A DNA stretch of 64,000 nt, taken from the NCBI GenBank assembly GCA_937902925.1, contig CALFNN010000103.1, forward strand, positions 310,001 through 374,000, in the 5' to 3' direction. Below the pieces are notes generated by a model that saw only the letters and a program-made list of their open reading frames with translations, was not told where the DNA came from and searched no databases. This stretch comes from an uncultured Opitutaceae bacterium (GTDB lineage: Bacteria > Verrucomicrobiota > Verrucomicrobiia > Opitutales > Opitutaceae). A program made the position numbers and the translations under genes. Shown here one piece after another: positions 49,926-64,000 of the stretch. Within the stretch, counting starts at the first letter, position 1. Every line of letters begins with the position of its first letter.

Positions 49926-50909
49926 CTAGTTTTGCGCGACGACCTTGGTGCCCTCGAAGTCGAACCGGAAACGAACCTCCTGCAGGCCTTGTTCCCGCAT
50001 GGCGCGTCGAAGCTTGGTCTTGTCGGCAGCGTAGAACATCAGGAAGCCGCCGCCGCCCGCGCCGATCAGTTTGCCGCCGAGGGCACCGTGGGCCCTCGCG
50101 TAGTCATACCATGCGTCGATCTGCGGATTGGACATGCCCGCGCTGCGGGCCTTCTTGCGCTGCCAGTGCACATCCATCAAGCGGGCAAATTCCTCGAGGT
50201 TGCCGCGCTCGAGCGCGACGAGCGACTGGCGGCCGAGGTCCTTGATGAAATGAAGATTGTCGAGCATGGCCGGGTCGCTCGACTTCGACCGGTCGTCCTG
50301 GTCCTTGAGAATGGCGGACGCGCTGCGGCTGTAGCCGGTGAAGAACAGGAGCAGATCGTCCTCGAGATTGAAGAGCGTCTCCTCGGCGATGGCGCACGGC
50401 CGGTATTCGACGCGGCCATCCGGGTGAAACGTGAAGGCGGTGATGCCGCCGACGGCGGAGATGTATTGGTCCTGTTTGCCGATGGGTTCGCCGAGTTTGT
50501 TAAGCTCGATGTCGCACGCCTGCTCGGCGAGTTCGGCGGGCGAGATCAGATTTTTTTTGTAGGCGTGCAGCGCCTTCAGCAGCGCGGTCGTAAAGCTGCC
50601 GGAGGAGCCGAGACCGGTGCCGCCCGGGATGTCGGCCATGGAGGTCAACTCGAGATGCGGGTCGGTGACGCGCACGAGCTTGAGCGCCTCGCGCACGATC
50701 GGATGCTTGATCTCGTCGATCGACGCGACGCGCTCGAGTCGCGAATACTTGACGATGATCTCCTGCTGGAACGTCCGGTGCTGCGTGAAGTAGACGTATT
50801 TGTCGATGGCCGCGGCCACGACAAAGCCGCCGAACTCGCGGGAGTAGGACGGCAGGTCGGTGCCGCCGCCGCCGAGGGAAATGCGCAGGGGAGAACGGGT
50901 GATGATCAT
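49926..50909 (-). CDS. hddA: D-glycero-D-manno-heptose-7-phosphate kinase (GHMP family)
   Basis: A 327-residue GHMP kinase. MIITRSPLRISLGGGGTDLP is the N-terminal substrate-binding segment, LTSMADIPGGTGLGSSGSFT is the ATP-binding PxGxGLGSS loop, and LGGKLIGAGGGGFLMFYAAD is the C-terminal motif 3. ELNKLGEPIGKQDQYISAVG is the conserved E...GKQDQ block of HddA-type kinases. It phosphorylates the heptose-7-phosphate at C1, making the 1,7-bisphosphate that GmhB then dephosphorylates. Its ATG overlaps the stop of the oxidoreductase gene upstream by four bases, so translation is coupled. Confidence 0.92.
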   Translation of the reverse strand: MIITRSPLRISLGGGGTDLPSYSREFGGFVVAAAIDKYVYFTQHRTFQQEIIVKYSRLERVASIDEIKHPIVREALKLVRVTDPHLELTSMADIPGGTGLGSSGSFTTALLKALHAYKKNLISPAELAEQACDIELNKLGEPIGKQDQYISAVGGITAFTFHPDGRVEYRPCAIAEETLFNLEDDLLLFFTGYSRSASAILKDQDDRSKSSDPAMLDNLHFIKDLGRQSLVALERGNLEEFARLMDVHWQRKKARSAGMSNPQIDAWYDYARAHGALGGKLIGAGGGGFLMFYAADKTKLRRAMREQGLQEVRFRFDFEGTKVVAQN

Positions 50910-51949
50910 GGCGGCGGGGAATCGGCCAGACTGGCAGTCGATACGGGAAAGCCGCTCTGGCGATAGATTTTTTCGACGATCTCGAGCGTGCGAATGCCGT
51001 CGTCCAAGCCGGGTGACGGCGGCCGGTTGAGGCGGATGTCGGCGACGAAGGCCCGCAACTCGAGCGCCCAGGACTCGTCGCTACCCGGAAAATCCCACGT
51101 CGTGGTCTCGGGCGGTCCCATTTGGGGAAGCATTTTGTAGAACGTGAGCCGCTCGGCCCCATAGCTGCCGCCGAGGCCGTCGATCGCGAGCTTGGCGTCG
51201 CGGCCGTAGAGTTCGAACGAGAACAGGTTCTTCCACTCGGTGCAGCTGGCGTGGAGCCACGCCGTCTGGCCGCGGGCCGTGCGCAACGAGAGAAACGCGT
51301 TGTCGTCGACCGGCATATCCCAGAACGAGGTGGCGGCGTGGCCCTCGACCGTCGGGAACTCGCCCAGGAACCAGGCGGCGAGATCGATGAGATGCACTCC
51401 CTGGTCGATCAATTCGCCGCCGCCGGAGAGCGCGGGATCGGCGCGCCATTCGCGATCGTAGCCCTGCCGCCCGCCGTGGCCGTAGCGCGCGCGGAGAAAC
51501 ATCAGCGGACCGAGCGCGCCCTCGTCGACCAGCGCGCGAGCCTTGCGCAACCCGGGGTGAAAGCGGTGATTGTAGCCGAGCCGGACAAGCGATCCGGATC
51601 GAGTCGCGGCATCGCGCAGCTCGCGGAGCTGGGCGGCGTTGAGCGCGCCGGGTTTTTCGAGGAGGACGTGCTTGCCCGCGCGGATCGCGGCGAGGGCGAG
51701 CTGGGCGAGGGAATTGTTGCGCGTGGAAACGATCACCGCATCGACGCGCGGATCCGTAAAAATCGGGGCTTCGTCGGTGACGGCCGAGCAGCCGGTGGCG
51801 AGTTTCGCAACCTCGGCCGCGCGGGCGGCATCGACATCGCAGGCGTAGAGCAGCGGGGGATTCGGGCCGAGCGCCAGCACGCGTTTCCGCCCGACGACCC
51901 CGCAGCCGAGCTGGGCAAATTGCAGTTGCGCGGATGGAATGCGACTCAT
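50906..51949 (-). CDS. Gfo/Idh/MocA-family NAD(P)-dependent sugar oxidoreductase
   Basis: A 347-residue oxidoreductase starting MSRIPSAQLQFAQLGCGVVG (NAD loop GCGVVGRKR). VDAVIVSTRNNSLAQLALAA and AGKHVLLEKPGALNAAQLRE carry the EKP motif with the catalytic lysine. GGGELIDQGVHLIDLAAWFL holds the G-G-x3-D-x3-H catalytic signature. Many such enzymes oxidise or reduce nucleotide-sugar carbons; the substrate here could be a GDP-heptose derivative since hddA follows in coupled fashion. I use the ATG at 51949, because the sequence upstream lacks the NAD fold. An inositol dehydrogenase-like role is also possible. Confidence 0.87.
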   Translation of the reverse strand: MSRIPSAQLQFAQLGCGVVGRKRVLALGPNPPLLYACDVDAARAAEVAKLATGCSAVTDEAPIFTDPRVDAVIVSTRNNSLAQLALAAIRAGKHVLLEKPGALNAAQLRELRDAATRSGSLVRLGYNHRFHPGLRKARALVDEGALGPLMFLRARYGHGGRQGYDREWRADPALSGGGELIDQGVHLIDLAAWFLGEFPTVEGHAATSFWDMPVDDNAFLSLRTARGQTAWLHASCTEWKNLFSFELYGRDAKLAIDGLGGSYGAERLTFYKMLPQMGPPETTTWDFPGSDESWALELRAFVADIRLNRPPSPGLDDGIRTLEIVEKIYRQSGFPVSTASLADSPPP

Positions 51950-51981
51950 GCGGGTTGGGAATGAAAGCGCGTCCGGATGGA

Positions 51982-52809
51982 CTATTGCCAGCGTCGGCCG
52001 CGATCGGCGGGCACCACCCGACGGAGCGTGTAGATATCGGACGTTTCGAGTTCCGTCTTGTGCGTCGACAGGGTGGGCCAGGTATCCCACGGCGCGCTTA
52101 GCAACCGACCGGAGATGCCGTCGGACGCCGGCGAAAGCAGCCATACCACCAGAGCCAGAGCTTTTTCGAGCGGAGCATCGCCGGCGGACTTGAGTTTTTG
52201 CGCGGCCGTGAACTCGGAGTCGCCGACCACGGCCGGCCCAAGGGCGATCAATTCGTCGGTGAGGCGCGTCGCGACGGCGCCGGGGGCGACCGCGTTGATA
52301 TCGAGCGGGCGCCCCCGCTCTTCCTCGGCGAGGGTTTCGACGAGACGCACGATCGCGGTCTTGGCGGCGCCATAAGCCGAGAAGTTGGGTCGGGGTTTGG
52401 CGGCGCCGCCGCCCGAGAAGCAGGCGATCTTGGCGCGACGTGGCGCGCGACCGAGCAGCGCGTGAAAGGCCCGAAGCGTAAAGAAAGTGCCGTCGAGATT
52501 GGCGCGGACGGTGGCACTCCAGCGGACCGGATCGACGGAAACCGCCCGGCCGACCTCGCCTTGCAGGCCAGCGCAGGTGACCAAGGCATCGAGGTGGGGA
52601 CAGGCGGCGGCAACCTCGTCCGCGGCACGCGCGACCTGGGTCCAGTCGGAAACGTCGCAACGCAGGGCGCGAAAGGTCTCGCGGTGTCCGGTCGCCAGAC
52701 TGGATTGATCGGAGCGGGCAAGGCCCCAGACGCGGTCGCCGCGGGCGAGGAGCCGTTCGGCCAGGGCGCGGCCGATGCCCGAACTGGTGCCGGTGATGAC
52801 GACGTTCAT
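51982..52809 (-). CDS. Classical SDR-family oxidoreductase
   Basis: A 275-residue classical short-chain dehydrogenase: MNVVITGTSSGIGRALAERL (TGxxxGIG), LDALVTCAGLQGEVGRAV (the NAG site reads CAG), KIACFSGGGAAKPRPNFSAY with the catalytic Ser, and SAYGAAKTAIVRLVETLAEE with Tyr-x3-Lys. INAVAPGAVATRLTDELI is typical of the cofactor loop. The last 60 residues (WLLSPASDGISGRLLSAPWD and a charged tail) extend beyond the usual family end. Gene order with an epimerase and the Gfo/Idh/MocA enzyme suggests redox editing of a sugar nucleotide. The substrate is unknown. Confidence 0.87.
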   Translation of the reverse strand: MNVVITGTSSGIGRALAERLLARGDRVWGLARSDQSSLATGHRETFRALRCDVSDWTQVARAADEVAAACPHLDALVTCAGLQGEVGRAVSVDPVRWSATVRANLDGTFFTLRAFHALLGRAPRRAKIACFSGGGAAKPRPNFSAYGAAKTAIVRLVETLAEEERGRPLDINAVAPGAVATRLTDELIALGPAVVGDSEFTAAQKLKSAGDAPLEKALALVVWLLSPASDGISGRLLSAPWDTWPTLSTHKTELETSDIYTLRRVVPADRGRRWQ

Positions 52810-52880
52810 GCGCGGCGCCAGAGAACGGAATTTCGCGGTGCGGGTAAAGCACCATGCGACGCCGGAGCGCCGCGTAGGCT

Positions 52881-53852
52881 TCAGCGGCGCGAATCGAAGA
52901 CCCAGCGATTCGCCTCCAGCCAGCGCAGGGTGCGGACGATTCCCTCGGCGATGGTGAGTCTGGGTTTCCAGCCGGCGGCCTGGATTTTTTTGGTATCGAG
53001 AAAGATGAAGGGATTGTCGCCGGTCCACCCGCGGTCGCCGCCGGTGTAGTCGAGGCGCGGCTTCAGGCCGAGCGTTGCGCAAATCTGGCGGATGCTGTCG
53101 CTGACCTGCACGTATTCGGGCGTGCCCAGATTATAAACCTGAGTCCGATGCTTTGCGTCACGAGCGGTGCCGAGATTCATCACGTGGAGGATCGCGTCGA
53201 TGCAGTCTTGCACGTAAAGATAGCTCTTCCGCTGCGTGCCGTCGCCCAGGACACGAAGCGAGTCGGGGTGTTCGAGCAGTTGACGATAGAAATCGAAAAC
53301 GTGGCCGTGCGTGTAGCGCTCGCCGAGGATCGAGACGAAGCGGAAGACGTAGCATTCGAATTCGAAGCCCTCGCCATAGGCGGCGAGCAGCGCCTCGCCG
53401 GCCACCTTGGAGGCGCCGTAGAGCGAGGTTTGCACGGGGAACGGAGCATCCTCCGGAGTGGGAATTGCGGTCGATTCGCCATAGACGGATCCGGTCGAAG
53501 AGAACGCGATGCGCTTGACGCCGATGGTCCGCATGGCTTCGAGGACGTTGAAAGTGGCGACGGTGTTTTGCTCGAGATCCTTCCGCGGATGATCGGTGCC
53601 GAAACGAACGTCGGCGTTGGCCGCGAGGTGGAAGACGGTGTCGCAGCCCGCCATCGCGCGCGCGAGGGCGTCGCCGTCGAGATTGTCGCCGCGAACAAGG
53701 CGGAATTGCGGCTGCGTCAACGCCCGGGCAAGAAAGCGCTCCTGTCCGGTGGAGAAGTTATCCCAGCCGACGACTGCGCTGCCACCGGCCAGAAGGCGAT
53801 CAACGAGGTTGGAACCGATGAATCCGGCTGCGCCGGTGACGAAGGCTTTCAC
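52881..53852 (-). CDS. Extended SDR: NAD-dependent UDP-glucose 4-epimerase-like sugar epimerase
   Basis: A 323-residue extended SDR, starting from a GTG at 53852 (KAFVTGAAGFIGSNLVDRLL). VFHLAANADVRFGTDHPRKD, IAFSSTGSVYGESTAIPTPE and TSLYGASKVAGEALLAAYGE give the NAD fold, the Ser/Thr site and an intact Tyr-x3-Lys. FVSILGERYTHGHVFDFYRQ and VYNLGTPEYVQVSDSIRQIC complete it. The group includes UDP-glucose 4-epimerase relatives and WbpP-type enzymes. It is the first gene of the long - strand run, 71 bases before the SDR gene and 136 bases after the secreted-protein gene. Confidence 0.86.
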   Translation of the reverse strand: MKAFVTGAAGFIGSNLVDRLLAGGSAVVGWDNFSTGQERFLARALTQPQFRLVRGDNLDGDALARAMAGCDTVFHLAANADVRFGTDHPRKDLEQNTVATFNVLEAMRTIGVKRIAFSSTGSVYGESTAIPTPEDAPFPVQTSLYGASKVAGEALLAAYGEGFEFECYVFRFVSILGERYTHGHVFDFYRQLLEHPDSLRVLGDGTQRKSYLYVQDCIDAILHVMNLGTARDAKHRTQVYNLGTPEYVQVSDSIRQICATLGLKPRLDYTGGDRGWTGDNPFIFLDTKKIQAAGWKPRLTIAEGIVRTLRWLEANRWVFDSRR

Positions 53853-53935
53853 GGGGGGGGAGAATATGCGAAAAGCACGACAGAGTGACCGCCCGAGGGA
53901 AAGCGCATAAGCCGCGGACGTCGCTTCGCTGTGCC

Positions 53936-53988: not shown

Positions 53989-55479
53989 CTAGGCGGCTGC
54001 CGTGGCTTTGCTCGCGGTCGGGAACTCCAAGCCGCCCAGCACGCCCTCAGCGGACGCCTTCCGCTCGTTCCCGTCTCTGCGCGTCGGCTGCGGATCGACC
54101 AAGAGGACGAAAGACTGCTGGCCGGGGGAGAATTCGGCAGCCATCCGCTCGGCGATATAGTTGCCCAATGCGCGCACGCTCTCGCCCAAGGTTGGGGCGG
54201 AATAGAGGATTTCACTCGCCGAGACTGTCGCGGCGTCTAGTAGCCCAAGTTCGCTGGAGGCGAGGAGCGCGGTCGACAAAGCTGGGCCGTTCTCGACCGA
54301 ACTTTGAACGACTGGCGAAGAGAAAATTTCGGAGGCGACGTTGACGACTGGTTCGGGGAGAAGGCGGGTCAGCGGTGCGTCGAACCGGGGCCCCACGGCC
54401 GTAAATCCAATCACATCGGCAGACGCGGCGACATTGGCGGAACTGTCGGTCAAATGAAGCGACGAGGGCTGTCCGTCACCCAGCAGGGCAATCGGCACGT
54501 TGAATTCTCCGGGCAGGAGGGGGTTCACCGCGGGTCCGGCACTGAGGGAGTTGGCGTGATTAAGCAGGTCGAGCACCTTTTGCTGGGAGTCCGCGTCGGT
54601 CGAATGCATGAGGCCGCGCAGTTGCTCAAGCAGGGCGCGAGAACGGTCGTCCAACGAGAGATTCACGATGACCACCTGGCTCGGATCGAAGGGTGTGGTC
54701 GGCGTAACGGGATCAACGGTCCCCGTATCGGTGCCCGTGTGGCCGGCATCGGACGTCGTGGAACCCGGGTCGCCGGAATCGACAGGCCCGGTCGGGGTAG
54801 TCGGGATTGCCGGCACACTGGACGTCGGCGTCACCATGAAGTGGATGGCGTCCTCTGAAATTCCGTATTTCGCCACCACTTGGGGGGCGTAGGTAAAATT
54901 AAGCGTCTGATCCTTGACCGCCCCATCTCGCGCCTCGAAATCAAACATGACGTTTTTGCTTTCGGATGTCACGGTAAGCGAATGCAAGTTCGTGAACACT
55001 TGGGTTCCGTCCAAAGAGGTTGCCGTGAGCATCATGTCGGAGCCCCACAAGCTAGCCCCGTTGATTCCTAGGTAGGCAATCGAGAGTGAACTGACGTCAG
55101 TCACTGTCGTGGCTTGGCTCACCGTGAGGCCGGGCGCGACCACCGATCCGATGCTGGTGAGAATCAGGTTGTCGATGTGACCGGTGCCTACGATCTGAAC
55201 GTCCTTGAACGAAGAGAGGTCGAGATTGGTGATGAAGCTGGGCAACTGATTCAAGTCGATCGTAACGGAAATATCGGAGTTGCCGGAAAGATTTAATTTA
55301 TGGTCCCCGAAATTCGTGCTGAATGAAGCATGGATGTCCGCCGAGCCGCTCACCGCATGCATGGTGAGATTGAAGTCCGCGACCAACCCGAAGGGATCGC
55401 CCGCATCCGCGGCGAGCAGGGTGCGCGTTTCGAGCCCTTCCAAGCGGAGACGACGGGTCGCTTTGGAGGATGACTTCAT
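53989..55479 (-). CDS. Predicted surface or secreted protein with N-terminal LEPR-XLL-like motif
   Basis: A 496-residue protein of unknown function. Residues 9-25 (RRLRLEGLETRTLLAADAG) match the short N-terminal motif type of many large Planctomycetes and some other surface proteins (LExRxLLA). No ordinary signal peptide precedes it. Residues about 30-215 are repeat-poor, beta-rich sequence (DISVTIDLNQLPSFITNLDL, HSLTVTSESKNVMFDFEARD). Residues about 217-266 are a Thr/Pro/Asp/Gly linker. Residues about 270-496 are helical and end in TASKATAAA. No anchor or sortase site is visible. It is the last gene of a three-gene - strand unit after two membrane fusion proteins, hence a candidate cargo of that system. 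Its composition is visibly less G+C-rich than the glycan genes. Confidence 0.75.
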   Translation of the reverse strand: MKSSSKATRRLRLEGLETRTLLAADAGDPFGLVADFNLTMHAVSGSADIHASFSTNFGDHKLNLSGNSDISVTIDLNQLPSFITNLDLSSFKDVQIVGTGHIDNLILTSIGSVVAPGLTVSQATTVTDVSSLSIAYLGINGASLWGSDMMLTATSLDGTQVFTNLHSLTVTSESKNVMFDFEARDGAVKDQTLNFTYAPQVVAKYGISEDAIHFMVTPTSSVPAIPTTPTGPVDSGDPGSTTSDAGHTGTDTGTVDPVTPTTPFDPSQVVIVNLSLDDRSRALLEQLRGLMHSTDADSQQKVLDLLNHANSLSAGPAVNPLLPGEFNVPIALLGDGQPSSLHLTDSSANVAASADVIGFTAVGPRFDAPLTRLLPEPVVNVASEIFSSPVVQSSVENGPALSTALLASSELGLLDAATVSASEILYSAPTLGESVRALGNYIAERMAAEFSPGQQSFVLLVDPQPTRRDGNERKASAEGVLGGLEFPTASKATAAA

Positions 55480-55503
55480 GTTGACGAGACGGAAAAAAGC
55501 CCT

Positions 55504-56355
55504 TCAGCGGTCGGGAGCAATCAATATCGCCTGAAATCCGGCGACCGCTTGGGCGGACGGTTCAATCTTAACCTTGACGCGAAAGGTGCTGGTTGAGTCG
55601 ACAATGGGATCCACGTAGAAGACCGTTCCGGGAACGATGGGTTGGTTATCTGCTGCGATTAAGACCCTAACATCGACCTTTTGACCGACTTTGAAGAGAG
55701 AAAAATACCTGGCATCGCAGTAAACGACCATTTCCAAGCTCGAGACATCGACAACCCGGACGACCGTCTCGTTGCGTTCAACCGCCTCGCCGACGTGCTT
55801 GTTGGTCTTCAGGAAGATACCATTGATCGGCGACACAATGTCGCGGTAGGCTAGGCGGACTTTCGCCGCATCCAAGGCCGCGACTGCCTGCTCATAGCGG
55901 CTTTGCGCGATCTCGGCATTGGCCTTGGCGTCCTGAAGCTGCTTTTCGCTGTTGATGGCGTCCTCGCGGAGCTTCTGGGTGCGGTCGTATTCGGCGGCCG
56001 CGCGATCCATCTCGGCCTTGGCACCATGCACGGACGCCTGAGCTTGAGAAACGTCTGCCCGTTCCTGGTTCGAATCGAGCGTCATGATGGCTTGGCCCGC
56101 GGTGACCAAGCTGCCCTCGGGAGCATGGATGACCTCGACGATGCCGGCCGCGCGGGCCGCAAGGGAGCGTTCATCCGCCGGTTGAAGGGGGGCTTGGAGC
56201 GAGCCCCGGCCCATCCCGCTGACCATGGAATAGAGGTCGCCGGACAGCGCGTTATTGGGCGGAAACGCTGGAGCAACCGGCGGGGATTCCGCAGCGAAGG
56301 ACGGCACGGAGCCAAGCGAAGCCAGGACAATCAGAAATCGGAGACGAAAACCCAT
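55504..56355 (-). CDS. Efflux-type periplasmic adaptor (membrane fusion protein)
   Basis: A 283-residue adaptor with a signal peptide (MGFRLRFLIVLASLGSVPSF, cleavage probably after FAA). The lipoyl-like domain has ARAAGIVEVIHAPEGSLVTA. A coiled-coil hairpin (DVSQAQASVHGAKAEMDRAA, RTQKLREDAINSEKQLQDAK) leads to the second lipoyl half VRLAYRDIVSPINGIFLKTN. The beta-barrel part is VVDVSSLEMVVYCDARYFSL. There is no N-terminal membrane helix beyond the signal. It should link an inner-membrane component to the TolC-like channel. No inner-membrane pump gene is adjacent; the neighbours are a GAF-HlyD adaptor upstream and the LEPR-XLL-like protein downstream. Confidence 0.88.
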   Translation of the reverse strand: MGFRLRFLIVLASLGSVPSFAAESPPVAPAFPPNNALSGDLYSMVSGMGRGSLQAPLQPADERSLAARAAGIVEVIHAPEGSLVTAGQAIMTLDSNQERADVSQAQASVHGAKAEMDRAAAEYDRTQKLREDAINSEKQLQDAKANAEIAQSRYEQAVAALDAAKVRLAYRDIVSPINGIFLKTNKHVGEAVERNETVVRVVDVSSLEMVVYCDARYFSLFKVGQKVDVRVLIAADNQPIVPGTVFYVDPIVDSTSTFRVKVKIEPSAQAVAGFQAILIAPDR

Positions 56356-56376
56356 GAGTTTGAAAATAACCGCAGT

Positions 56377-58557
56377 CTAGAAGAACCGGACCGTAAGATA
56401 GTCGGCAAAGTCCTTGAATAGCGAATAGGCGAGCGAGTGGATGCCGGCACCGAAACTGACCTGACCGGTGAAACCCGCCTTGAGAAACGTCGGGTTGTCG
56501 ATCCGGCTGTTGAGCGGGAGCATGGCGGTGAACAGATATTGGTTCGTCGACGTGTCCAAGCCGTAGGCGAGTTGGTCCTTGTTGGTGAGTTCGACCGGAT
56601 ACTTGTGGGCGGGATTGGCCGCGAGGCGCAGGATGCCCGGCACGGGGCCCTCCTGCCGCAGTTCCCGGTCGAGCAGGATCAGGTCGCGCTCCTTCAGGTT
56701 GGTCTTCACCTGCCACGCAGTCGGATCGACGACTTGCAGTGCGGTTTCGCCGACGCGCAACACTTCGCCGACCCGCATGGACAGCGTCTGGGCGCCGAGG
56801 ACCAAACCGTCGAACGGGGCGCGCACAACCGCTCGCTGCAAATCCATCTGCAGTTTCTGCGCGGTTGCCAGGGCCCTTTCGCCGGTCAGGCGGGAGATCT
56901 GCATCTGGGTTTCGTTGCCCGCCGCGAGAGCGGCCCCACTGGCGACCTGCGCGCTGTCGTATTCGTGCTGCGCCTGCGCGAGCTGCAGGCGAATGTCCGT
57001 CGTATCGAAGCGGGCCAGGACTTGATCCTTTTTGACGGCTTCGCCCTCCCGCACGTTGACCTCCAGCAATCGCGAACCGACCAACGCGGGCAGGGTGCTT
57101 TGCTTCACGGGCAGCACGTTGGCGTTGCCCTTGACCTTGTAGGGAAACGGAAAGGCGAGGACCGCGGCGACCAACAACACGGGGAATCCGAACCGCAACC
57201 ACAATCGTTTGGCTGGAGTATTGACGTATTCCTGCCGAAGCGCGACGAGGCGTTTCGCGAGCCGCATCGAACGATTCTGGCTGCAATAGAGCGTCGTGCC
57301 GAGCGCCTTGCCGGCTGACGCCGCCAGCTCGATCATCGGCTTGAGGGAATTGCTGAGCTTTTCCTCCAATTTGACGCCCTCGAACAAAATGATGCCGCAG
57401 ACGCGTTGCTCGCGATCGAACAAGGGAATGACGGTCGCCCAGTTCATGGGCATCACGTCGAAATACTCGTTAACCTCGGGGGGGCGGGTGGCCTCCTTCG
57501 AGGGATCGCGCATCAACAGGGTCAGCTGCGTTTTTGGCCGCCCGGCATCGCCGAAGATGCTGTGGGGATTTGCCGCGACTTGTCGCTCGCCGGTTCCCGT
57601 TGGGGAAGCCAATGCTTCGTTCGCCGCACCCGGGTTGTTGACCGCGGGAGCGGGAGAATCGTTTGTGGTTTTCTCCAGCGACATCTCCGTCAGCTTTCGT
57701 GCCGCGTGCTGGAGGATGACCGCCTGCTCGCTTTTCGGGTGAGGGCGCTTGAGGCCGCTGCAGGCCTGCAACTGGAACTCGTATTCCAACTCGCCGGCCA
57801 CGGCATGCGCGGCCATCGCCCGGCCGTAGTCGCGCGCGATGAACAGGCAAACGCGCTCGCACGCCACCGCCTCACGGGCGTAGTTGACGAGTTTCCAACT
57901 GACGGAATCGAGGTCGATATCACCGGTCAGTTCGTCGAGCAGGCGCGTGTAGGTGGTGAGCCGGGCGACTTCGTCGGAGGCATCGCGCGCCCGGCGGGCC
58001 TTCAAATAATGTTCGAACTCAACGCACAGCTGTCGGAGGACCGTGAGCCGGGCATGCGAGGCCGCATTGTTCGACGGAGGAAACCAGACATGGAGAATTC
58101 CGGCGGTGCCCTCGCCAAACAGGATCGGAACAAACAACTGCTCGTAAGGTGTGTGGTTGAAGGTGGCCAGTTCGTCCGGCGCGGGTGATTCGACGGGAGA
58201 CGGTCCCTGCAGGCCGGTCGTCGGCCGCGTTTGAGGCGGGATCAGCAGGGTCTTCCTCTGGTCGGCGGCCATGTTGCGGGCGCGCACAAAGGAATCTTCC
58301 TGCTCGGGCGAGTCCCGAAAGCCCAACGACTCGAGGTTGCTGTGTAAAACCCGCTGAAACACCGTCCCCACCTTTATCTCATAGGCGAATCCGACCGGCC
58401 TGAACGCACCCGTCACGCACTCGGCATGGGCGCGCAGATAGACGCCGAGATCGGGGGGATTGGCCGCAAGTTGTGAGAGCCGGGTTGCGATTCCGTTCAA
58501 AAACTGCTGCTGCTGCGAGAGCTGTGTGGGCGCAAGCGATGGCTGCACGGGCGTCAT
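56377..58557 (-). CDS. GAF domain-HlyD membrane fusion protein
   Basis: A 726-residue protein with an unusual layout. Residues about 20-430 are cytoplasmic; RLTTYTRLLDELTGDIDLDS and YAREAVACERVCLFIARDYG fit a GAF-like sensor or scaffold. A membrane helix follows (FGFPVLLVAAVLAFPFPYKV, about 455-475). Then comes a periplasmic HlyD adaptor: PALVGSRLLEVNVREGEAVK, coiled-coil AQAQHEYDSAQVASGAALAA, AVVRAPFDGLVLGAQTLSMR and a C-terminal barrel with WQVKTNLKERDLILLDREL. I start at MTPVQPSLAPTQLSQQQQ (58557). The fusion suggests that a cytoplasmic signal or protein contact controls adaptor function. It is first in its operon, facing the TolC gene. Confidence 0.85.
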   Translation of the reverse strand: MTPVQPSLAPTQLSQQQQFLNGIATRLSQLAANPPDLGVYLRAHAECVTGAFRPVGFAYEIKVGTVFQRVLHSNLESLGFRDSPEQEDSFVRARNMAADQRKTLLIPPQTRPTTGLQGPSPVESPAPDELATFNHTPYEQLFVPILFGEGTAGILHVWFPPSNNAASHARLTVLRQLCVEFEHYLKARRARDASDEVARLTTYTRLLDELTGDIDLDSVSWKLVNYAREAVACERVCLFIARDYGRAMAAHAVAGELEYEFQLQACSGLKRPHPKSEQAVILQHAARKLTEMSLEKTTNDSPAPAVNNPGAANEALASPTGTGERQVAANPHSIFGDAGRPKTQLTLLMRDPSKEATRPPEVNEYFDVMPMNWATVIPLFDREQRVCGIILFEGVKLEEKLSNSLKPMIELAASAGKALGTTLYCSQNRSMRLAKRLVALRQEYVNTPAKRLWLRFGFPVLLVAAVLAFPFPYKVKGNANVLPVKQSTLPALVGSRLLEVNVREGEAVKKDQVLARFDTTDIRLQLAQAQHEYDSAQVASGAALAAGNETQMQISRLTGERALATAQKLQMDLQRAVVRAPFDGLVLGAQTLSMRVGEVLRVGETALQVVDPTAWQVKTNLKERDLILLDRELRQEGPVPGILRLAANPAHKYPVELTNKDQLAYGLDTSTNQYLFTAMLPLNSRIDNPTFLKAGFTGQVSFGAGIHSLAYSLFKDFADYLTVRFF

Positions 58558-58920
58558 TAAGAAGGTTACGACAATTTCATCCCGTGTGTTGGGATGGCAA
58601 CCCAAATTAAAACCCGCGACTTGGGCCGTGCGCGAAGTCGGTCCACGCGAAGGGACTGCCAGCATTGTTTTTGGCGCCGAATGGGCGAGGGTGCATGATT
58701 TTGGATATCGACCGGGGCCCTCCGATGGCCCCTGAGATTGCGGAAACGACAGCGGCGGTGGGTGCAAACAAAGACGGAACCGTTGTGGGAAATTGCCTGC
58801 CCATCGTCGGAAAAACGCATTGCCATGTCGACCGGTTGGACTGACGTTGCGTGTTTTGGCGAAATGCATCACATCACTTGGCTGGCATCAGGTAACCGCA
58901 AATCCGTCCGTCGAATCGGC
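58558..58920. promoter_or_regulatory. 363-base divergent control region of the export system
   Basis: This gap separates the GAF-HlyD gene from the TolC gene and must hold both promoters. I cannot read a confident -35/-10 pair. TTGGG and CCCAA at 58589-58605 form a five-base inverted repeat with a seven-base spacer, 31 bases before the GAF-HlyD start, a possible operator or LuxR-type site. In-frame start codons further upstream of the TolC gene, at 58825 (ATG) and 58738 (TTG), would shrink the gap. The residues they add look neither like a signal peptide nor like conserved sequence. Confidence 0.5.
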
Positions 58921-60426
58921 ATGAGGGACGTTGGTCTCACGCCAGCCGCATCGCCATGGCAGGTGCGCCCGACTTGGCTGGCTTCGATTTCAAGCCGGGG
59001 ACGGATCGCGGCGAGGTGCCTGATTGGCACGGTCCTGGCACTGGCCTTGAGTAGCCCGCTGTGCGCTGCCGGGGCGCCCGCGGTATCGCCGGGCGTGGGG
59101 GCAACGCCTTCCGGTGCACCAGGAGCGACGATGAATGGCGGAAACGAATGGACTCTTGAGCGGGCACTCGCCCGCGCGGTGGAGTCGAATCCGGACGTGC
59201 TGGCTGCCAAGTATGAGGTCGAACGTCAGGAGGGCGCGCGCTTGCAGGTGAGGGCGAGGTTGTTGCCGACCGTCGACTTCAGCGCCAGCCTGAACCAGCG
59301 GGAGCAGGGCTTGGTCGATCTCTCACCGAGTCAGAGGTTGAATCCCTCCCCGCCGACGCCGGACACGGCCGTGGCGCTGTTCGGTTACGACGTAAGTGTC
59401 GAGGTGCGGCAGACTTTGTTTGATGGTTTTTCCTCGTGGAACGCGGCGAAACGCCAAAGCTTGGTGAAGAAAGAAAGTTACCTCTCTCTTATAAACACGG
59501 TTGCCCAGACCGTCAGCCAGGTGCGCGAAGGATTCGATGCGATTCTATTGCGGACGGCCGGTGTCACGGCACAAAAAAACCGGGTCGATGAATATTCGCA
59601 ATTGGTCGACATGACCTCCCGCAAAAACTCGGTCGGCGACATCCCGGAATTCGAGCTGTTGCGGGCAGAGGCGGAACTGGAGGGTGCGAAGGCGGATCTG
59701 GCGGAAGCCACGCGCTCGCTGGTGCAGGCCCAGCAGTCTTTTCGCCGGCTCCTGCAAATATCCAGTTCGGCGGGTCCGTTGAAGATTGTCGGGAAGTTTG
59801 AGCCCCGGCAGTTCGACTTGCCGCTGGAACGGGCGATCGGGCTGGCGCGCGCCAACCGGCCGGACCTGCAGGCAGCCACGGTGGCGGTCGAGGCGGCGCG
59901 ACGAGAGTTGCTTTCGGACTCTGGTGGCAATTTCCCGAAATTTCAGGCCTTTGCCTCCTACGGTGGCCGCAGCTCTTACTATGACTCCGCCGTTCAGCTC
60001 AAGGGCTGGACCTACGGAGTGATCGGACAGTGGAACCTGTTCGAGGGTGGCGCCGCCCGCGGCCGCCGGATGAGTCTGCGGGCCGATCAGCGGAGTGCGG
60101 AATCCAAGCTCGCCCAGACGGAGCAGGGAATTGTTTCGAAGCTCAACGAGCTTTACGAAAGCCTTGCGCAGTCACGCGTCGCCATGGAGGCGCAGGGCAA
60201 GGGATTGAGCCTGTCGGCCCGGGCTTCGCACGACGCCCGCCGGCAATACGAGTTGGGCTCCGCGAGCCTGGACCAGGTGCTGCAGGCGAGCATTACCTAC
60301 CGGCAGTCCGAAACGCGGATGAACGAGGCAGTTTACGACTACAATGCGATTGTAGCCGAGATCGAACTCGCGGTCGGTGGCCGGATCGACGATTCGCTCA
60401 GGGTCCCCGAAACATGGAAGCCGTAG
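58921..60426 (+). CDS. TolC-family outer membrane efflux protein
   Basis: A protein of about 501 residues. The start at 58921 gives a long N-region with a hydrophobic signal core (IGTVLALALSSPLCAAGAPA), expected for an outer membrane protein. TLERALARAVESNPDVLAAK is the first OEP repeat. FGYDVSVEVRQTLFDGFSSW is the first strand-and-turn of the channel, and TYGVIGQWNLFEGGAARGRR the equivalent in the second half. Long helices such as VAQTVSQVREGFDAILLRTA and GKGLSLSARASHDARRQYEL make up the tunnel. It forms the exit duct for adaptors encoded on both strands. Its stop overlaps the next start by 13 bases. Confidence 0.9.
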   Translation: MRDVGLTPAASPWQVRPTWLASISSRGRIAARCLIGTVLALALSSPLCAAGAPAVSPGVGATPSGAPGATMNGGNEWTLERALARAVESNPDVLAAKYEVERQEGARLQVRARLLPTVDFSASLNQREQGLVDLSPSQRLNPSPPTPDTAVALFGYDVSVEVRQTLFDGFSSWNAAKRQSLVKKESYLSLINTVAQTVSQVREGFDAILLRTAGVTAQKNRVDEYSQLVDMTSRKNSVGDIPEFELLRAEAELEGAKADLAEATRSLVQAQQSFRRLLQISSSAGPLKIVGKFEPRQFDLPLERAIGLARANRPDLQAATVAVEAARRELLSDSGGNFPKFQAFASYGGRSSYYDSAVQLKGWTYGVIGQWNLFEGGAARGRRMSLRADQRSAESKLAQTEQGIVSKLNELYESLAQSRVAMEAQGKGLSLSARASHDARRQYELGSASLDQVLQASITYRQSETRMNEAVYDYNAIVAEIELAVGGRIDDSLRVPETWKP

Positions 60427-62636
60427 CCAACGTCCCGGCAGGCGCGCAGCGGGAATCGAACGCCGAGCGCCAGACGGGTGCCATGGTGCCGCCGCCATTG
60501 CGCGCCGACATCATCATCCGCCGGCAGTTTTTCAAGCATCAGGAATACTACGTCCTGAAGGATCCGTTGGCGCTGACCTATTTCCGGTTGCTGCCGGAGG
60601 AGGCCTACATTCTCACCCTGCTCGACGGCAAACGCACGTTTCGTCAGATGGCGGAGCGATTTAATGTGAAGTATCCCAATCATCATCGTTCGGTGATGGA
60701 CCTAAACCAGTTTGTCGCGCAGCTTGGGGGTGGGGGGCTCCTGAACATCAGCGCGAGCCGGTTCGTCGAAAACGCCAAGCGCAGCGCGCCGCAGCAGCTG
60801 TTGCTGATCTGGGCGAAATTAATCTCGACGTCGCTGTTTGTGAAAGTGCCGCTGCTCGATCCCAGCCCGTGGCTGGGTTCGTTGGCCCATGCGATCCGTT
60901 TTGTCTGGTCGAAGTGGTTCGTGGGGGCCGCGCTGCTCCTGTATGTCTGGACCGCGGGCTTGTTGCTGGCGAACGCGGACCAATTCTCCGTGCACCGGAT
61001 CGATTTCTTTTCCGCGAGCAACCTGATCGTGCTCTGGTTCACGATCATCGTGATCAAGAGCCTGCATGAGTTCGGGCATGCCACGACATGCTGCCACTTC
61101 GGCGGAGAAGTGCACGAAATGGGGTTCGCCCTGCTGTGTTTCACGCCATGCGGCTATGTCGATGCGTCGGACGCATGGATGATGCGTCGGCAGCGCCACA
61201 AGATCTACACGACGATCGCCGGGATCTTCACGGAACTCATCCTCGCGTGCATCGCCGCGCATTTATGGCTCATCCTGCCCGACGGCCTTGGCCGCAGCGT
61301 GGCGTTCAACGCCATGCTGGTCGCCAGCATCAACACGCTCGTGTTCAACATCAATCCGCTGATGCGTTTCGACGGTTACTACGTGCTCTGCGACGTGCTG
61401 GAGATTCCCAATCTCCGCACGAAGGCGATCAGCTTTTGCTCCTATCATCTGCAACGACTCCTGCTCGGCTACCGAAACCTCGCGCAGGAAGTGCAGTTCG
61501 CGGACGAGGCGAACGGCCGCGTCTTTGTCGGTTACGCGGTGCTGGCCTACCTCTACATGATTTCAATCATTTACGGTTTCACCCAGATTTTCGGCCGCGT
61601 GCTGCAGCCAATCGGATTGCACGACTTCGGCCTTTACGTTGGTTTTTTTGTCGAAGGTTCGTTCGTCGTCCTGCCCTTTATCAAAGTCATCATGGATGCC
61701 TCTTCTCCTGGCGTGCACATCGTTAAGTCCGGATCGGCTTCCCGACGGGCGACGATAATTTGCGCCGGCTTGGCCGCGCTCGTGGCTGCCAGCTTCGTCA
61801 TTCCGTCGCGGCATCATGTCACGCAGCAGGCGATTGTGGTGCCGCGCACCCTTGAGGGCGTCTCGTCCGAGGTTGGGGGAATCGTCAAGGCGGTTTACGT
61901 TCGCACCGGTCAGTGGGTCGAGCGCGGCGATTTGCTCGTTACGCTCGAGAATACCGAGATTACGGCGGATTTGCGCATCGCCGATGCTGGCCGCCAGCAG
62001 GCGCGGGTGCAGTTCGGTTCGCTCCGGCGGTCTGGCCTCTGGGCCGGCTCCGAGTCGCAAGCCTACGCGGCGCAGGAAATGGAAGTCGCGGAAGCGGCCT
62101 ACCGGATCGCCGAGGCGAGGGCGGCGAGGCTGGAGTTGCGCGCCCAGAGTGCGGGCTACATCCTGACTCCGGATATCGAGAAGCTCGTGGGGGTCTACGT
62201 CGCGCCTTTTTCCGTGGTGTTGCGGTTCGGCGATACCCGGCAGTTGAAACTCGTCGTGCCGCTGACCGAGGACGAGGCGCAGATGGTGACTCTCGGCGCC
62301 CCGGTTTCGGGCCGCTGGCTCGCCACGGCGGAATCCTTTCACACCACGCTCGACGCGCTTTCGTCCCAGCCGGCCAAGCCGAACGAATTTCAAACGGGGA
62401 TGCTCGCCTTTTTTGGCGGACCGGTTCCGACCCAGATGCTGCAGCGGGACGCGCGTGACCGCCCGGACTATCCCATTTTTCTGGCGTCGGCGCCCATGCC
62501 GAAACCTGACTTCAATGTGCCGGATGGGATGCGGGTGCAGATTACGATCGAGGGCAACCGCACGACATTCGGGGCCAAGACCTGGCGGTGGATTCTTTCC
62601 TGGCTCGATCTGAAGTCGAAGGCGGTCAGGCGCTGA
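60414..62636 (+). CDS. PqqD-like domain-M50 metalloprotease-HlyD fusion membrane protein
   Basis: A 740-residue inner-membrane protein. Residues about 20-110 resemble a PqqD-like winged-helix domain (FFKHQEYYVLKDPLALTYFR, MAERFNVKYPNHHRSVMDLN). Residues about 130-445 have several membrane helices with site-2-protease motifs: the zinc site HEFGH at 218-222 (KSLHEFGHATTCCHFGGEVH) and the third ligand Asp320 in NPLMRFDGYYVLCDV. Residues about 450-740 are an HlyD-type adaptor with a membrane helix (IICAGLAALVAASFVIPSRH), VGGIVKAVYVRTGQWVERGD and a coiled coil. Known relatives accompany peptide maturation and export. It overlaps the TolC gene, so it is co-expressed with it. It may process and hand on a cargo. 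Confidence 0.88.
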   Translation: MEAVANVPAGAQRESNAERQTGAMVPPPLRADIIIRRQFFKHQEYYVLKDPLALTYFRLLPEEAYILTLLDGKRTFRQMAERFNVKYPNHHRSVMDLNQFVAQLGGGGLLNISASRFVENAKRSAPQQLLLIWAKLISTSLFVKVPLLDPSPWLGSLAHAIRFVWSKWFVGAALLLYVWTAGLLLANADQFSVHRIDFFSASNLIVLWFTIIVIKSLHEFGHATTCCHFGGEVHEMGFALLCFTPCGYVDASDAWMMRRQRHKIYTTIAGIFTELILACIAAHLWLILPDGLGRSVAFNAMLVASINTLVFNINPLMRFDGYYVLCDVLEIPNLRTKAISFCSYHLQRLLLGYRNLAQEVQFADEANGRVFVGYAVLAYLYMISIIYGFTQIFGRVLQPIGLHDFGLYVGFFVEGSFVVLPFIKVIMDASSPGVHIVKSGSASRRATIICAGLAALVAASFVIPSRHHVTQQAIVVPRTLEGVSSEVGGIVKAVYVRTGQWVERGDLLVTLENTEITADLRIADAGRQQARVQFGSLRRSGLWAGSESQAYAAQEMEVAEAAYRIAEARAARLELRAQSAGYILTPDIEKLVGVYVAPFSVVLRFGDTRQLKLVVPLTEDEAQMVTLGAPVSGRWLATAESFHTTLDALSSQPAKPNEFQTGMLAFFGGPVPTQMLQRDARDRPDYPIFLASAPMPKPDFNVPDGMRVQITIEGNRTTFGAKTWRWILSWLDLKSKAVRR

Positions 62637-62663
62637 CCGCGTTGGGGGGGTGGTGCCGGCCGC

Positions 62664-62685
62664 GCCCGAGGATTGTAATCCGGGC
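62664..62685 (+). terminator. Bulged hairpin after the M50-HlyD gene
   Basis: GCCC and GGATT pair with AATCC and GGGC around a GT loop, with a two-base GA bulge, 27 bases past the stop. No U tract follows, so it may be only a pause or processing signal before the regulator gene. Confidence 0.35.
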
Positions 62686-62774
62686 GATTGCCCGCCCGCC
62701 GCCGTGGCGTGCCGTTGGACCCGCCGGGTTGGATTGGGCTTCTCCTTGGATTCTGAAGAGCTATCGTTCCGCGG

Positions 62775-63884
62775 ATGCTCGCAGCTTCCGCACTGACCGA
62801 ATGCCTGCTCGACCTCGCCTTGCAGCGAAATCTCGCGGGTTTTCAACAGTCGTTGAAGCGCACCTTCGAGCAGGCGGATTTGTCGGCGTGGGCGGTCATT
62901 TTTCCCGCGAATTCGGTGGTCGGAAGCCGTCCGATGTTCATGGGAAACGGAATTCGGTCGGACAACAGCCCGTTGCTGGCGCTCGCGTCGAAGAACGGAC
63001 TGGAGTCGGTCATTCCCGCCCAGGGACTGGCTTCGCCGCAACTTGACCGGCTGGCGCGGGAGATCAGCCCGGACACGGGCAGTCGCTGCCAGATTCTCCG
63101 CACGAGGCGGGAAAAGGGCGGGGAGTTGGTCCTCTTCTGTTATCGGGCGGCGACCGTGGGCGATTTCGCGGTGGAAGAGCTCGCCATGCTCACTCGCATC
63201 GGGCGCTTGCTGGATCGTTGCTTCACGGCGTTGGCGCAGTCGCAAGAGGACGAGTTTGAAGCCGGCTTGTTCCGACTCGTGGGAAATCTCCACCCCGAAG
63301 GACTGTGCGTGCTCGACAATCGTCTCCGGGTGATTTTCGAGAACCGGCGATTCCGCGAGCAGATGCACGTATGGAATCGCGGCATCGGTGCGCTGCAAAG
63401 TCTCTCGCTGCCGAAGCAGTCGGAGCTTCCCGGCGATTGGAAGGAGGCCTGCGATCGATCTTTTCAGGCGTTTCGAGAGGTGAAATTCCCGCCGGTGTCC
63501 GGCCGGATGGTCGTGTCGCAGGGTCCGCTCTCGACCCTGAAGAAGGCGGTCGACGCGGAAAGTTGGATCGAGGGAGCGGTGCGTTATCTGGCGTTTCAAA
63601 GCGCGCTGGGGGTCCGGCCGTATCTGATCCTGACCTGCTCGGTCCACCGCCAGCAGGCCGCCACAGGCGGTGTGAACCTCGCCCATATCGCCAAGAAACT
63701 CGGTTTTTCGCGCCGGGAGACGGAACTGGCGGACCTGATCCTGCGCGGGAATTCGGCCCGCGAAATTGCCAAGCAGCTCAAGATCGCCCTGCCCACCGTA
63801 AAAACCCACATCCGGCACATCCTGCACAAGTCCGGCGTGAAAACCCGTCTTCAGTTCGTGGGATTGTGCAATCCTCGTGGCTGA
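62775..63884 (+). CDS. LuxR-type transcriptional regulator with N-terminal sensory region
   Basis: A 369-residue protein. Residues about 308-369 are a LuxR-type helix-turn-helix: KLGFSRRETELADLILRGNS, then REIAKQLKIALPTVKTHIRH and ILHKSGVKTRLQFVGLC. Residues about 1-160 have a GAF-like look (FEQADLSAWAVIFPANSVVG), and about 165-270 a PAS-like one (FRLVGNLHPEGLCVLDNRLR). There is no response-regulator receiver domain, so it should sense a ligand or redox state directly. It lies 138 bases after the M50-HlyD gene and probably regulates the divergent unit between 58557 and 58921. The ATG at 62775 has no clear ribosome binding site. Confidence 0.87.
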   Translation: MLAASALTECLLDLALQRNLAGFQQSLKRTFEQADLSAWAVIFPANSVVGSRPMFMGNGIRSDNSPLLALASKNGLESVIPAQGLASPQLDRLAREISPDTGSRCQILRTRREKGGELVLFCYRAATVGDFAVEELAMLTRIGRLLDRCFTALAQSQEDEFEAGLFRLVGNLHPEGLCVLDNRLRVIFENRRFREQMHVWNRGIGALQSLSLPKQSELPGDWKEACDRSFQAFREVKFPPVSGRMVVSQGPLSTLKKAVDAESWIEGAVRYLAFQSALGVRPYLILTCSVHRQQAATGGVNLAHIAKKLGFSRRETELADLILRGNSAREIAKQLKIALPTVKTHIRHILHKSGVKTRLQFVGLCNPRG

Positions 63885-64000
63885 TTCGGCGCAGAAATCG
63901 GACCACGTCGGCCAGCGATGGATTTTGCCGGTCGGCTGCCGGCGGCGCGGAGCGGGCTTGCCGATGTCGAACGGGACACTCTTGCTTCGACGCGTATGAG
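63885..64000. other. Right end of the window, no gene recognised
   Basis: These 116 bases follow the LuxR regulator stop. Both strands have short open stretches, but none with a start and a recognisable product. It may be the end of a gene that lies beyond the window. Confidence 0.4.

Follow-up and report, generated by a model that had tools for sequence, protein, structure and literature searches.

A candidate two-membrane exporter for LEPR-XLL-type proteins in an uncultured Opitutaceae bacterium

Results

A six-gene cluster in two divergent arms

The window analyzed here is a stretch of 64,000 nucleotides (G000:C103:310001-374000) from the genome of an uncultured Opitutaceae bacterium (G000; 6.0 Mb in 105 contigs), and the subject of this work is a cluster of six genes near its end. 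An initial annotation, made from the sequence alone, described these genes as two divergent arms around a 363-base control region and proposed that they form an export and processing system for a protein with a LEPR-XLL-like N terminus. We found the six open reading frames (ORFs) where they had been placed, and the order and orientation of their homologues are kept in related genomes; both the two-arm layout and the linkage of the genes therefore stand. The features of the cluster are as follows (aa, amino acids).

53989..55479, minus strand: small LEPR-XLL-type protein P0003, 496 aa, a predicted exported substrate or surface accessory (PF07595)
55405..55449, minus strand: LEPR-XLL-type N-terminal motif LRLEGLETRTLLAAD, aa 11-25 of P0003 (alignment A3)
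55504..56355, minus strand: short periplasmic adaptor P0004, 283 aa, RND_mfp-like, with a signal peptide (TIGR01730, hydrophobic N terminus)
56377..58557, minus strand: GAF-HlyD protein P0002, 726 aa, with a GAF-like N-terminal part, one membrane helix and a C-terminal HlyD part (PF13437 over cut-off, GAF_3 weak)
58558..58920, no strand: divergent control region, 363 bases, between the conserved GAF-HlyD start and the likely TolC start
58921..60426, plus strand: TolC-family outer-membrane channel with a signal peptide (PF02321, hydrophobic N terminus)
60414..62636, plus strand: M50-HlyD protein P0001, 740 aa, with a PqqD-like domain, an M50 (site-2 type) membrane protease and an HlyD adaptor (PF02163 and PF16576 over cut-off)
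62775..63884, plus strand: LuxR-type regulator, 369 aa (PF00196)

The control region is delimited by the GAF-HlyD start at 58557, whose first residues MTPVQ are kept in a relative (L049), and by the likely TolC start at 58921. A domain scan recognized the channel (PF02321, E 9e-53) and the helix-turn-helix part of the regulator (PF00196, E 2e-10), and it located HlyD domains (PF13437/PF16576) in the GAF-HlyD protein, in the short adaptor and at the C terminus of the M50 protein. The short adaptor scored over cut-off as a periplasmic adaptor of the resistance-nodulation-division (RND) type (TIGR01730, E 1e-41). As for the GAF-HlyD adaptor, PF13437 over cut-off bears out its HlyD part, but the GAF part proved weaker in the window copy than had been claimed (E 0.0065, below cut-off), although it is clear in the homologue L044 (PF01590, E 1e-14). 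Its single hydrophobic segment, seen by hydropathy near residues 453-476, would place the GAF part in the cytoplasm and the HlyD part in the periplasm, given the usual orientation. When four of the cluster's proteins were run through PADLOC, no match to anti-phage defence was obtained.

A putative membrane protease fused to an adaptor

The central protein of the cluster, P0001, had been described as a PqqD-like domain joined to an HEFGH zinc protease and an HlyD adaptor, and the fusion of the latter two was confirmed. PF02163 scored just above its cut-off and PF16576 over it, and the protein carries HEFGH and NPLMRFDG, that is, the HExxH and distal NPxxxxDG motifs by which it is classed as a putative M50 (site-2) protease. 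The residues concerned (H218, E219, H222, N314, P315 and D320) are invariant in 23 homologues. The NCBIfam model of the daptide intramembrane protease, NF041824, also matched with E 1e-47 and 162.9 bits, below its 300-bit cut-off. The PqqD-like domain fared less evenly: it fell below cut-off in the window protein (13.9 bits versus 23.4, E 0.07) but exceeded it in the homologue L046 (32.4 bits versus 23.4), and residues 34-106 were predicted to form three strands and three helices. In the complete model (pLDDT 80.7), this N-terminal strand-helix domain is followed by a membrane part of several helices and, at the C terminus, by the adaptor; hydropathy likewise indicated several membrane helices. 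In a fold search with the model, the matches listed were adaptors, the best solved structures being MacA, MexA and ZneB; a viral library gave no match, and no relatives were found among viral contigs. The closest named match to the whole protein is encoded by a metagenome-assembled genome (MAG) of an Opitutae bacterium (L106; 64% identity).

Three gene orders around the M50-HlyD gene

To compare the cluster with its relatives, two sets of loci were used. Twenty neighborhoods of related genomes were scanned with home-made profiles and gave gene orders that we call types A and B, and a contig search gave the 80 best named loci, mostly from Planctomycetota. In Verrucomicrobiota and Pseudomonadota, homologous kits consisting of M50-HlyD, GAF-HlyD, short HlyD and TolC genes adjoin giant LEPR-XLL-type proteins, and related clusters occur in Planctomycetota and other phyla. 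Among the 80 independent M50-HlyD loci, a GAF-HlyD neighbor is present in 61, a short-HlyD neighbor in 66 and a SecA-like neighbor in 17. This recurrence of the two adaptor genes around the M50-HlyD protein makes it the best candidate for the inner-membrane hub, as the initial annotation had supposed.

Type A, the order of the window, has GAF-HlyD, short HlyD and a small LEPR-XLL protein on one arm and TolC, M50-HlyD and LuxR on the other, with the LuxR orthologue directly 3' of the M50 gene in all loci that reach that far. Besides the window, it includes L049-L055 and two loci from MAGs, L106 and L107; the genes of L052 are rearranged, and the contig of L055 ends within the locus. In type B (L056-L068), TolC, short HlyD, GAF-HlyD, M50-HlyD and a SecA-like gene are usually accompanied by a giant ORF, in variable orientation. 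Type C begins with a giant immunoglobulin (Ig), DUF4347, tandem-95 or other repeat protein, followed by TolC, adaptor, HlyD and M50-HlyD genes; it is carried by plasmids of Niveispirillum, Variovorax, Kosakonia, Azospirillum and Citrobacter, and neither a SecA-like gene nor an ATP-binding cassette (ABC) gene is present in its operons. In a tree of 108 M50-HlyD proteins (midpoint root, uneven support), type C forms one clade, the window falls within a verrucomicrobial clade that lacks SecA-like genes, and most of the loci with SecA-like genes lie in one large clade, the rest being scattered among Planctomycetota. At two alphaproteobacterial loci (L046:9705-10025 and L048:9678-9974), a DUF3467 gene, possibly for a chaperone or a regulator, stands between the giant and the adaptor genes. 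The search of plasmids also matched 18 Escherichia plasmids.

An N-terminal motif shared by small and giant proteins

LEPR-XLL proteins were first noted in planctomycetes, and very large bacterial proteins are among them. The LEPR-XLL-like N terminus of the 496-aa protein was assessed with PF07595, which gave 29.6 bits at the motif in a six-frame search of the genome, the sole match over cut-off genome-wide; on the single protein the score was 21.9 bits, below the cut-off of 25.5, and NF012209 of NCBIfam did not match it. In alignment A3, built from 11 proteins, E, LE, R and LL are invariant. By hydropathy, none of the LEPR-XLL N termini tested resembled a Sec-type signal peptide, unlike the controls P0004 and TolC, whose N termini are hydrophobic and signal-peptide-like.

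In L049, L050, L051, L053, L054, L106 and L107, the third gene of the corresponding arm encodes a LEPR-motif protein of like size, and the type A counterparts measure about 430-515 aa. Besides the motif, six aligned small proteins (the window's and five others) share a block around E-x-TPGE in their C-terminal part. The predicted model of the 496-aa protein contains a beta-rich, solenoid-like stretch at about residues 40-215, the rest being of low confidence, and a fold search returned nothing at E < 0.001; the best weak match, a two-partner secretion domain, fits the solenoid idea only.

Much larger proteins bearing the motif lie near several type A loci: 1103 aa at L049, >1500 aa at L052, about 1350 aa in G012 and G056, and >1500 aa at L051, where the protein contains cadherin, Ig and RTX repeats. 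In the genome of the window, the larger LEPR-XLL protein sits at the end of contig C11 (L011:1-1578; open frame of 1262 aa, MAKKTKKRFKSNLKLEALEQRQLLAG). Since its counterpart adjoins the cluster in the related genome G003, a rearrangement or an assembly break in G000 is likely. The initial description of the 496-aa protein as the cargo therefore needs correction: at least one other LEPR-XLL protein is encoded besides it, and the usual partner of the kit is a far larger repeat protein. Given its conservation within the operon and the presence, near several type A loci, of a larger LEPR-XLL protein encoded separately, we regard the small protein as probably an accessory substrate, perhaps an anchor for the larger one.

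The same signature was read directly from the giant ORFs beside type B loci, most of which, among those checked, start with LE-x-R-x-LL-like peptides (LEPRVLL, LETRMLL, LETRLLL, LEPRIML, LEARILL, LEPRVLL and LEPRILL). Most of the plasmid giants beside the kit carry it as well (LEPRFLL, IEPRILL, LEPRVLL, LEPRLLL, LEPRMLF, LEPRMMF, LEARYMF and LESRQLF), and the Azospirillum giant, as annotated, is without it. LEPR-XLL partner proteins span 430 to >10,000 aa. Three individual cases may be recorded here. On a conjugative IncHI1B plasmid of Citrobacter (NZ_CP142906.1; L216, L222), the M50-HlyD kit adjoins an Ig-like giant starting LESRQLFDGA. In Alisedimentitalea (L210; NZ_CP123586.1 near 183224), a gene for a giant calcium-binding protein is apparently annotated to start too far downstream, with LEPRLLLAAD in frame upstream. 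In G048, a LEPR-type motif is carried by an open frame as long as 13,828 aa (G048:C1:4260035), which lies 150 kb from the M50-HlyD locus.

Co-occurrence of the motif and the M50-HlyD gene

The initial annotation had suggested that LEPR-XLL-type proteins should co-occur with M50-HlyD genes across genomes, and they do. The M50-HlyD protein was found in 25 of 115 related genomes; the A3 motif, searched with a profile from 11 N termini that include sequences from these loci, was found in 15, and 14 of the 15 also encode M50-HlyD (Fisher p 1.7e-10). Most A3 matches lie 3-13 kb from the M50 gene, and type A loci with enough flanking sequence have a LEPR-XLL gene nearby. In one planctomycete, Roseimaritima sediminicola (G116, L119), M50-HlyD was matched four times and PF07595 13 times.

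A dedicated SecA-like ATPase in one branch

The additional gene of type B loci encodes a SecA-like ATPase of about 650 aa (PF07517, E about 1e-90 or better) that retains the Walker A sequence TGEGKT. In alphaproteobacterial loci, where this gene is annotated as "preprotein translocase subunit SecA" or "prepilin peptidase," SecA_DEAD was matched with E 1e-91 to 1e-103, and the cross-linking and P-loop domains are present; compared with housekeeping SecA, the C-terminal part is missing. All seven type B genomes searched contain one housekeeping SecA plus one extra copy per M50 locus, and the two genomes with two M50 loci each (G020 and G099) have two extra copies each. Of all the observations, this pairing of one SecA-like gene with each M50 locus hints most strongly at the kit being a protein translocase. 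A second SecA is absent from all eight type A genomes searched (G000 and seven others), which have the housekeeping copy only.

Discussion

A proposed route across two membranes

From the results above, we consider it probable that the cluster encodes a dedicated two-membrane exporter for proteins with an N-terminal LEPR-XLL-type motif. In such a system, the PqqD-like domain of M50-HlyD would bind the motif, much as the leader-recognition domains of ribosomally synthesized and posttranslationally modified peptides (RiPPs) bind leaders. A SecA-type ATPase would push the substrate across the inner membrane, a dedicated one in type B and the housekeeping SecA or another energy source in type A, and the M50 site may either serve as a gate or cut the substrate close to where the motif ends in LL-A. 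The three HlyD-type proteins could together build a tube through the periplasm to TolC; a cytoplasmic signal may be sensed by the GAF part of the second adaptor, and the LuxR protein may switch the operons. The 496-aa protein would be one substrate, probably an accessory or an anchor for a larger LEPR-XLL protein. More tentatively, and as a claim to which we give somewhat less than even weight, these loci would represent an undescribed Gram-negative secretion system present in several phyla, in which a PqqD-like domain reads LEPR-XLL, a site-2-protease/adaptor fusion is the hub, a truncated SecA drives one branch and general SecA the others, and giant proteins leave through TolC.

Several points weigh against this reading. 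We infer export, binding and cleavage from genes and sequences, and the branch of the window has no dedicated motor, which leaves the energy step there unexplained. PqqD and GAF are weakly recognized in the window copy, and M50 proteases usually cut transmembrane helices, which the LEPR-XLL motif is not. The tight linkage of motif and M50-HlyD gene is partly by construction, as A3 was built in part from these loci; with PF07595 alone, a published model that does not depend on these loci, the number of motif-bearing genomes drops to 6 of 115, five of which have the M50 gene. The broad samples are low in power: NF012209 was found in 2 of 240 Alphaproteobacteria, too rare for a test, and among Planctomycetota, the M50 protein is present in three of four PF07595 genomes versus 32 of 139 overall (p 0.04), a weak second test. 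Finally, orthologues of a gene for a Wzt-type ABC ATPase (E 1e-95 or better) stand at five type A loci, namely, the window cluster, L049, L052, L053 and L054.

Alternative explanations

The rival that survives best, which we nonetheless regard as unlikely, is that LEPR-XLL proteins cross the inner membrane by general Sec alone and that the cluster performs the outer-membrane step, with TolC and the adaptors as a passive conduit and the M50 protease as quality control. It would account for the lack of a dedicated motor in type A and C loci, and the SecA relative in type B points to SecYEG. However, the N-terminal motif is not Sec-like by hydropathy, and a passive conduit leaves the PqqD-like domain unexplained.

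A second rival concerns the gene next to the cluster. The initial annotation reported neither an RND pump nor an ABC ATPase and held that a nearby ABC or RND gene clearly serving these adaptors would speak against its proposal. The former statement is correct: the domain scan found no RND pump or pump of the major facilitator superfamily among the six genes, and inspection recognized none in the ORFs of the next 11 kb. The latter is true only inside the window. Directly after the LuxR gene, the Wzt-type ABC ATPase gene starts at window coordinate 64002 (L009:2103-3434), 2 bases past the window, within a region given by window positions 63918-64000 and L009:2019-3434. The adaptors and TolC could thus be energized by this ATPase together with a Wzm permease, in an unusual ABC-driven export of a glycan or a glycosylated protein. 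Such an arrangement would be in keeping with the Wzt orthologues at the five type A loci and with the places of the Wzm gene: it is next to Wzt in L053 and L054, G003 has it at a distance of about 20 kb from the cluster, and in G000 it is on contig C11, which also bears the larger LEPR-XLL protein. It would also suit the ORFs at window positions 49926-53900, which by eye are sugar kinase-like, oxidoreductase-like and epimerase-like, a sugar-nucleotide-like set suggesting that the cluster sits within a glycan biosynthesis locus. On the other hand, the ATPase carries the carbohydrate-binding Wzt_C domain typical of O-antigen export, which is not known to use HlyD or TolC; the gene is absent from L051 and from type B and C operons, and Wzm and Wzt lie apart in most type A genomes tested. 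An ABC gene is therefore nearby in the letter, but in substance it is of the O-antigen exporter type and stands in a glycan-like neighborhood. Because it belongs to a glycan-exporter type and is missing from the other gene orders, the Wzt-type ATPase probably does not serve these adaptors, and we judge this rival improbable. Just after the Wzt gene, a short ORF (L009:3482-3790) resembles, by eye, the start of a phage-type integrase; it lies near the point at which the gene order ceases to match G003.

We attach an equally low probability to a membrane-stress or proteolysis module, in which the M50 protease would cut a regulatory membrane protein while the adaptors and TolC serve small-molecule efflux with an RND or ABC pump from elsewhere. 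M50 proteases do act in regulated proteolysis, the short adaptor matches the profile of RND periplasmic adaptors, and a GAF domain suggests sensing; against this, the protease is fused to HlyD and linked to LEPR-XLL genes across phyla, and a pump gene conserved with the kit was not seen. Least likely of all is RiPP-like maturation and export of a small peptide by the PqqD-M50 protease, with the LEPR-XLL proteins as mere neighbors: the M50 part does best match the daptide protease model, and daptide genes are distant matches on Streptomyces plasmids, but the partners are large proteins with a common N-terminal motif, and an HlyD fusion and TolC take the place of a peptide ABC exporter.

Comparison with known systems

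LEPR-XLL proteins, until now without a named exporter in the open papers searched, are tied here to a specific conserved kit and a SecA-like motor. If the dedicated exporter proposed above is real, it would span two membranes with neither an ABC nor an RND pump, and the leader-reading PqqD-like domain would gain a role in giant-protein secretion. We found no published description of such a system in the openly licensed literature searched, and to our knowledge, the combination of known families, tag and SecA pairing fits no known system. Every part belongs to a known family, and the function proposed for the whole is a prediction from those parts.

Two families of substrates and enzymes offer partial likenesses. 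The small protein and its larger partners share their N-terminal motif with the LEPR-XLL/Planc_extracel proteins (NF012209, PF07595), which are known as a sequence signature only. The daptide and epipeptide M50 proteases (MpaP, YydH/LiaK) are the best curated matches over the N-terminal and HExxH membrane parts of M50-HlyD; the window protein, however, falls below the family cut-offs, adds a C-terminal HlyD part and is partnered by large proteins and TolC. The RSP protein of IncHI plasmid R27 is likewise a large Ig-domain surface protein, and the IncHI1B plasmid pB18196_2 holds a type C kit beside another Ig-like giant. We considered RSP as an already characterized case and rejected it, as its export was reported to depend on the plasmid type IV secretion ATPase TrhC, in a paper that names no HlyD or TolC (PMC6764697).

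The closest likenesses are to type I secretion and accessory Sec. Like type I systems (HlyB-HlyD-TolC; LapBCE), the kit combines HlyD-family adaptors and a TolC-family channel, and it lies next to genes for giant repeat adhesins, some of which carry calcium-binding repeats of the RTX type. In contrast to them, an HlyB-type ABC exporter is absent from all three gene orders, the sole nearby ABC ATPase being of the Wzt type with Wzt_C; the substrate signature is N-terminal, whereas type I signals are C-terminal; and the hub is a PqqD-M50-HlyD fusion, with a second adaptor that has a predicted cytoplasmic GAF part. Type B, and only type B, resembles accessory Sec (SecA2, with SecY2 in streptococci and staphylococci) in that very large surface adhesins with unusual N termini have a SecA paralogue of their own. 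Its SecA-like protein is truncated to about 650 aa, however, no SecY2 was seen, and it occurs in Gram-negative hosts together with adaptors and TolC; in the window branch the second SecA is absent. Since these defining features were looked for and not found, we assign the system to neither class. By analogy, it may work like a type I system in which the ABC exporter has been replaced, or like an accessory Sec pathway extended through the outer membrane.

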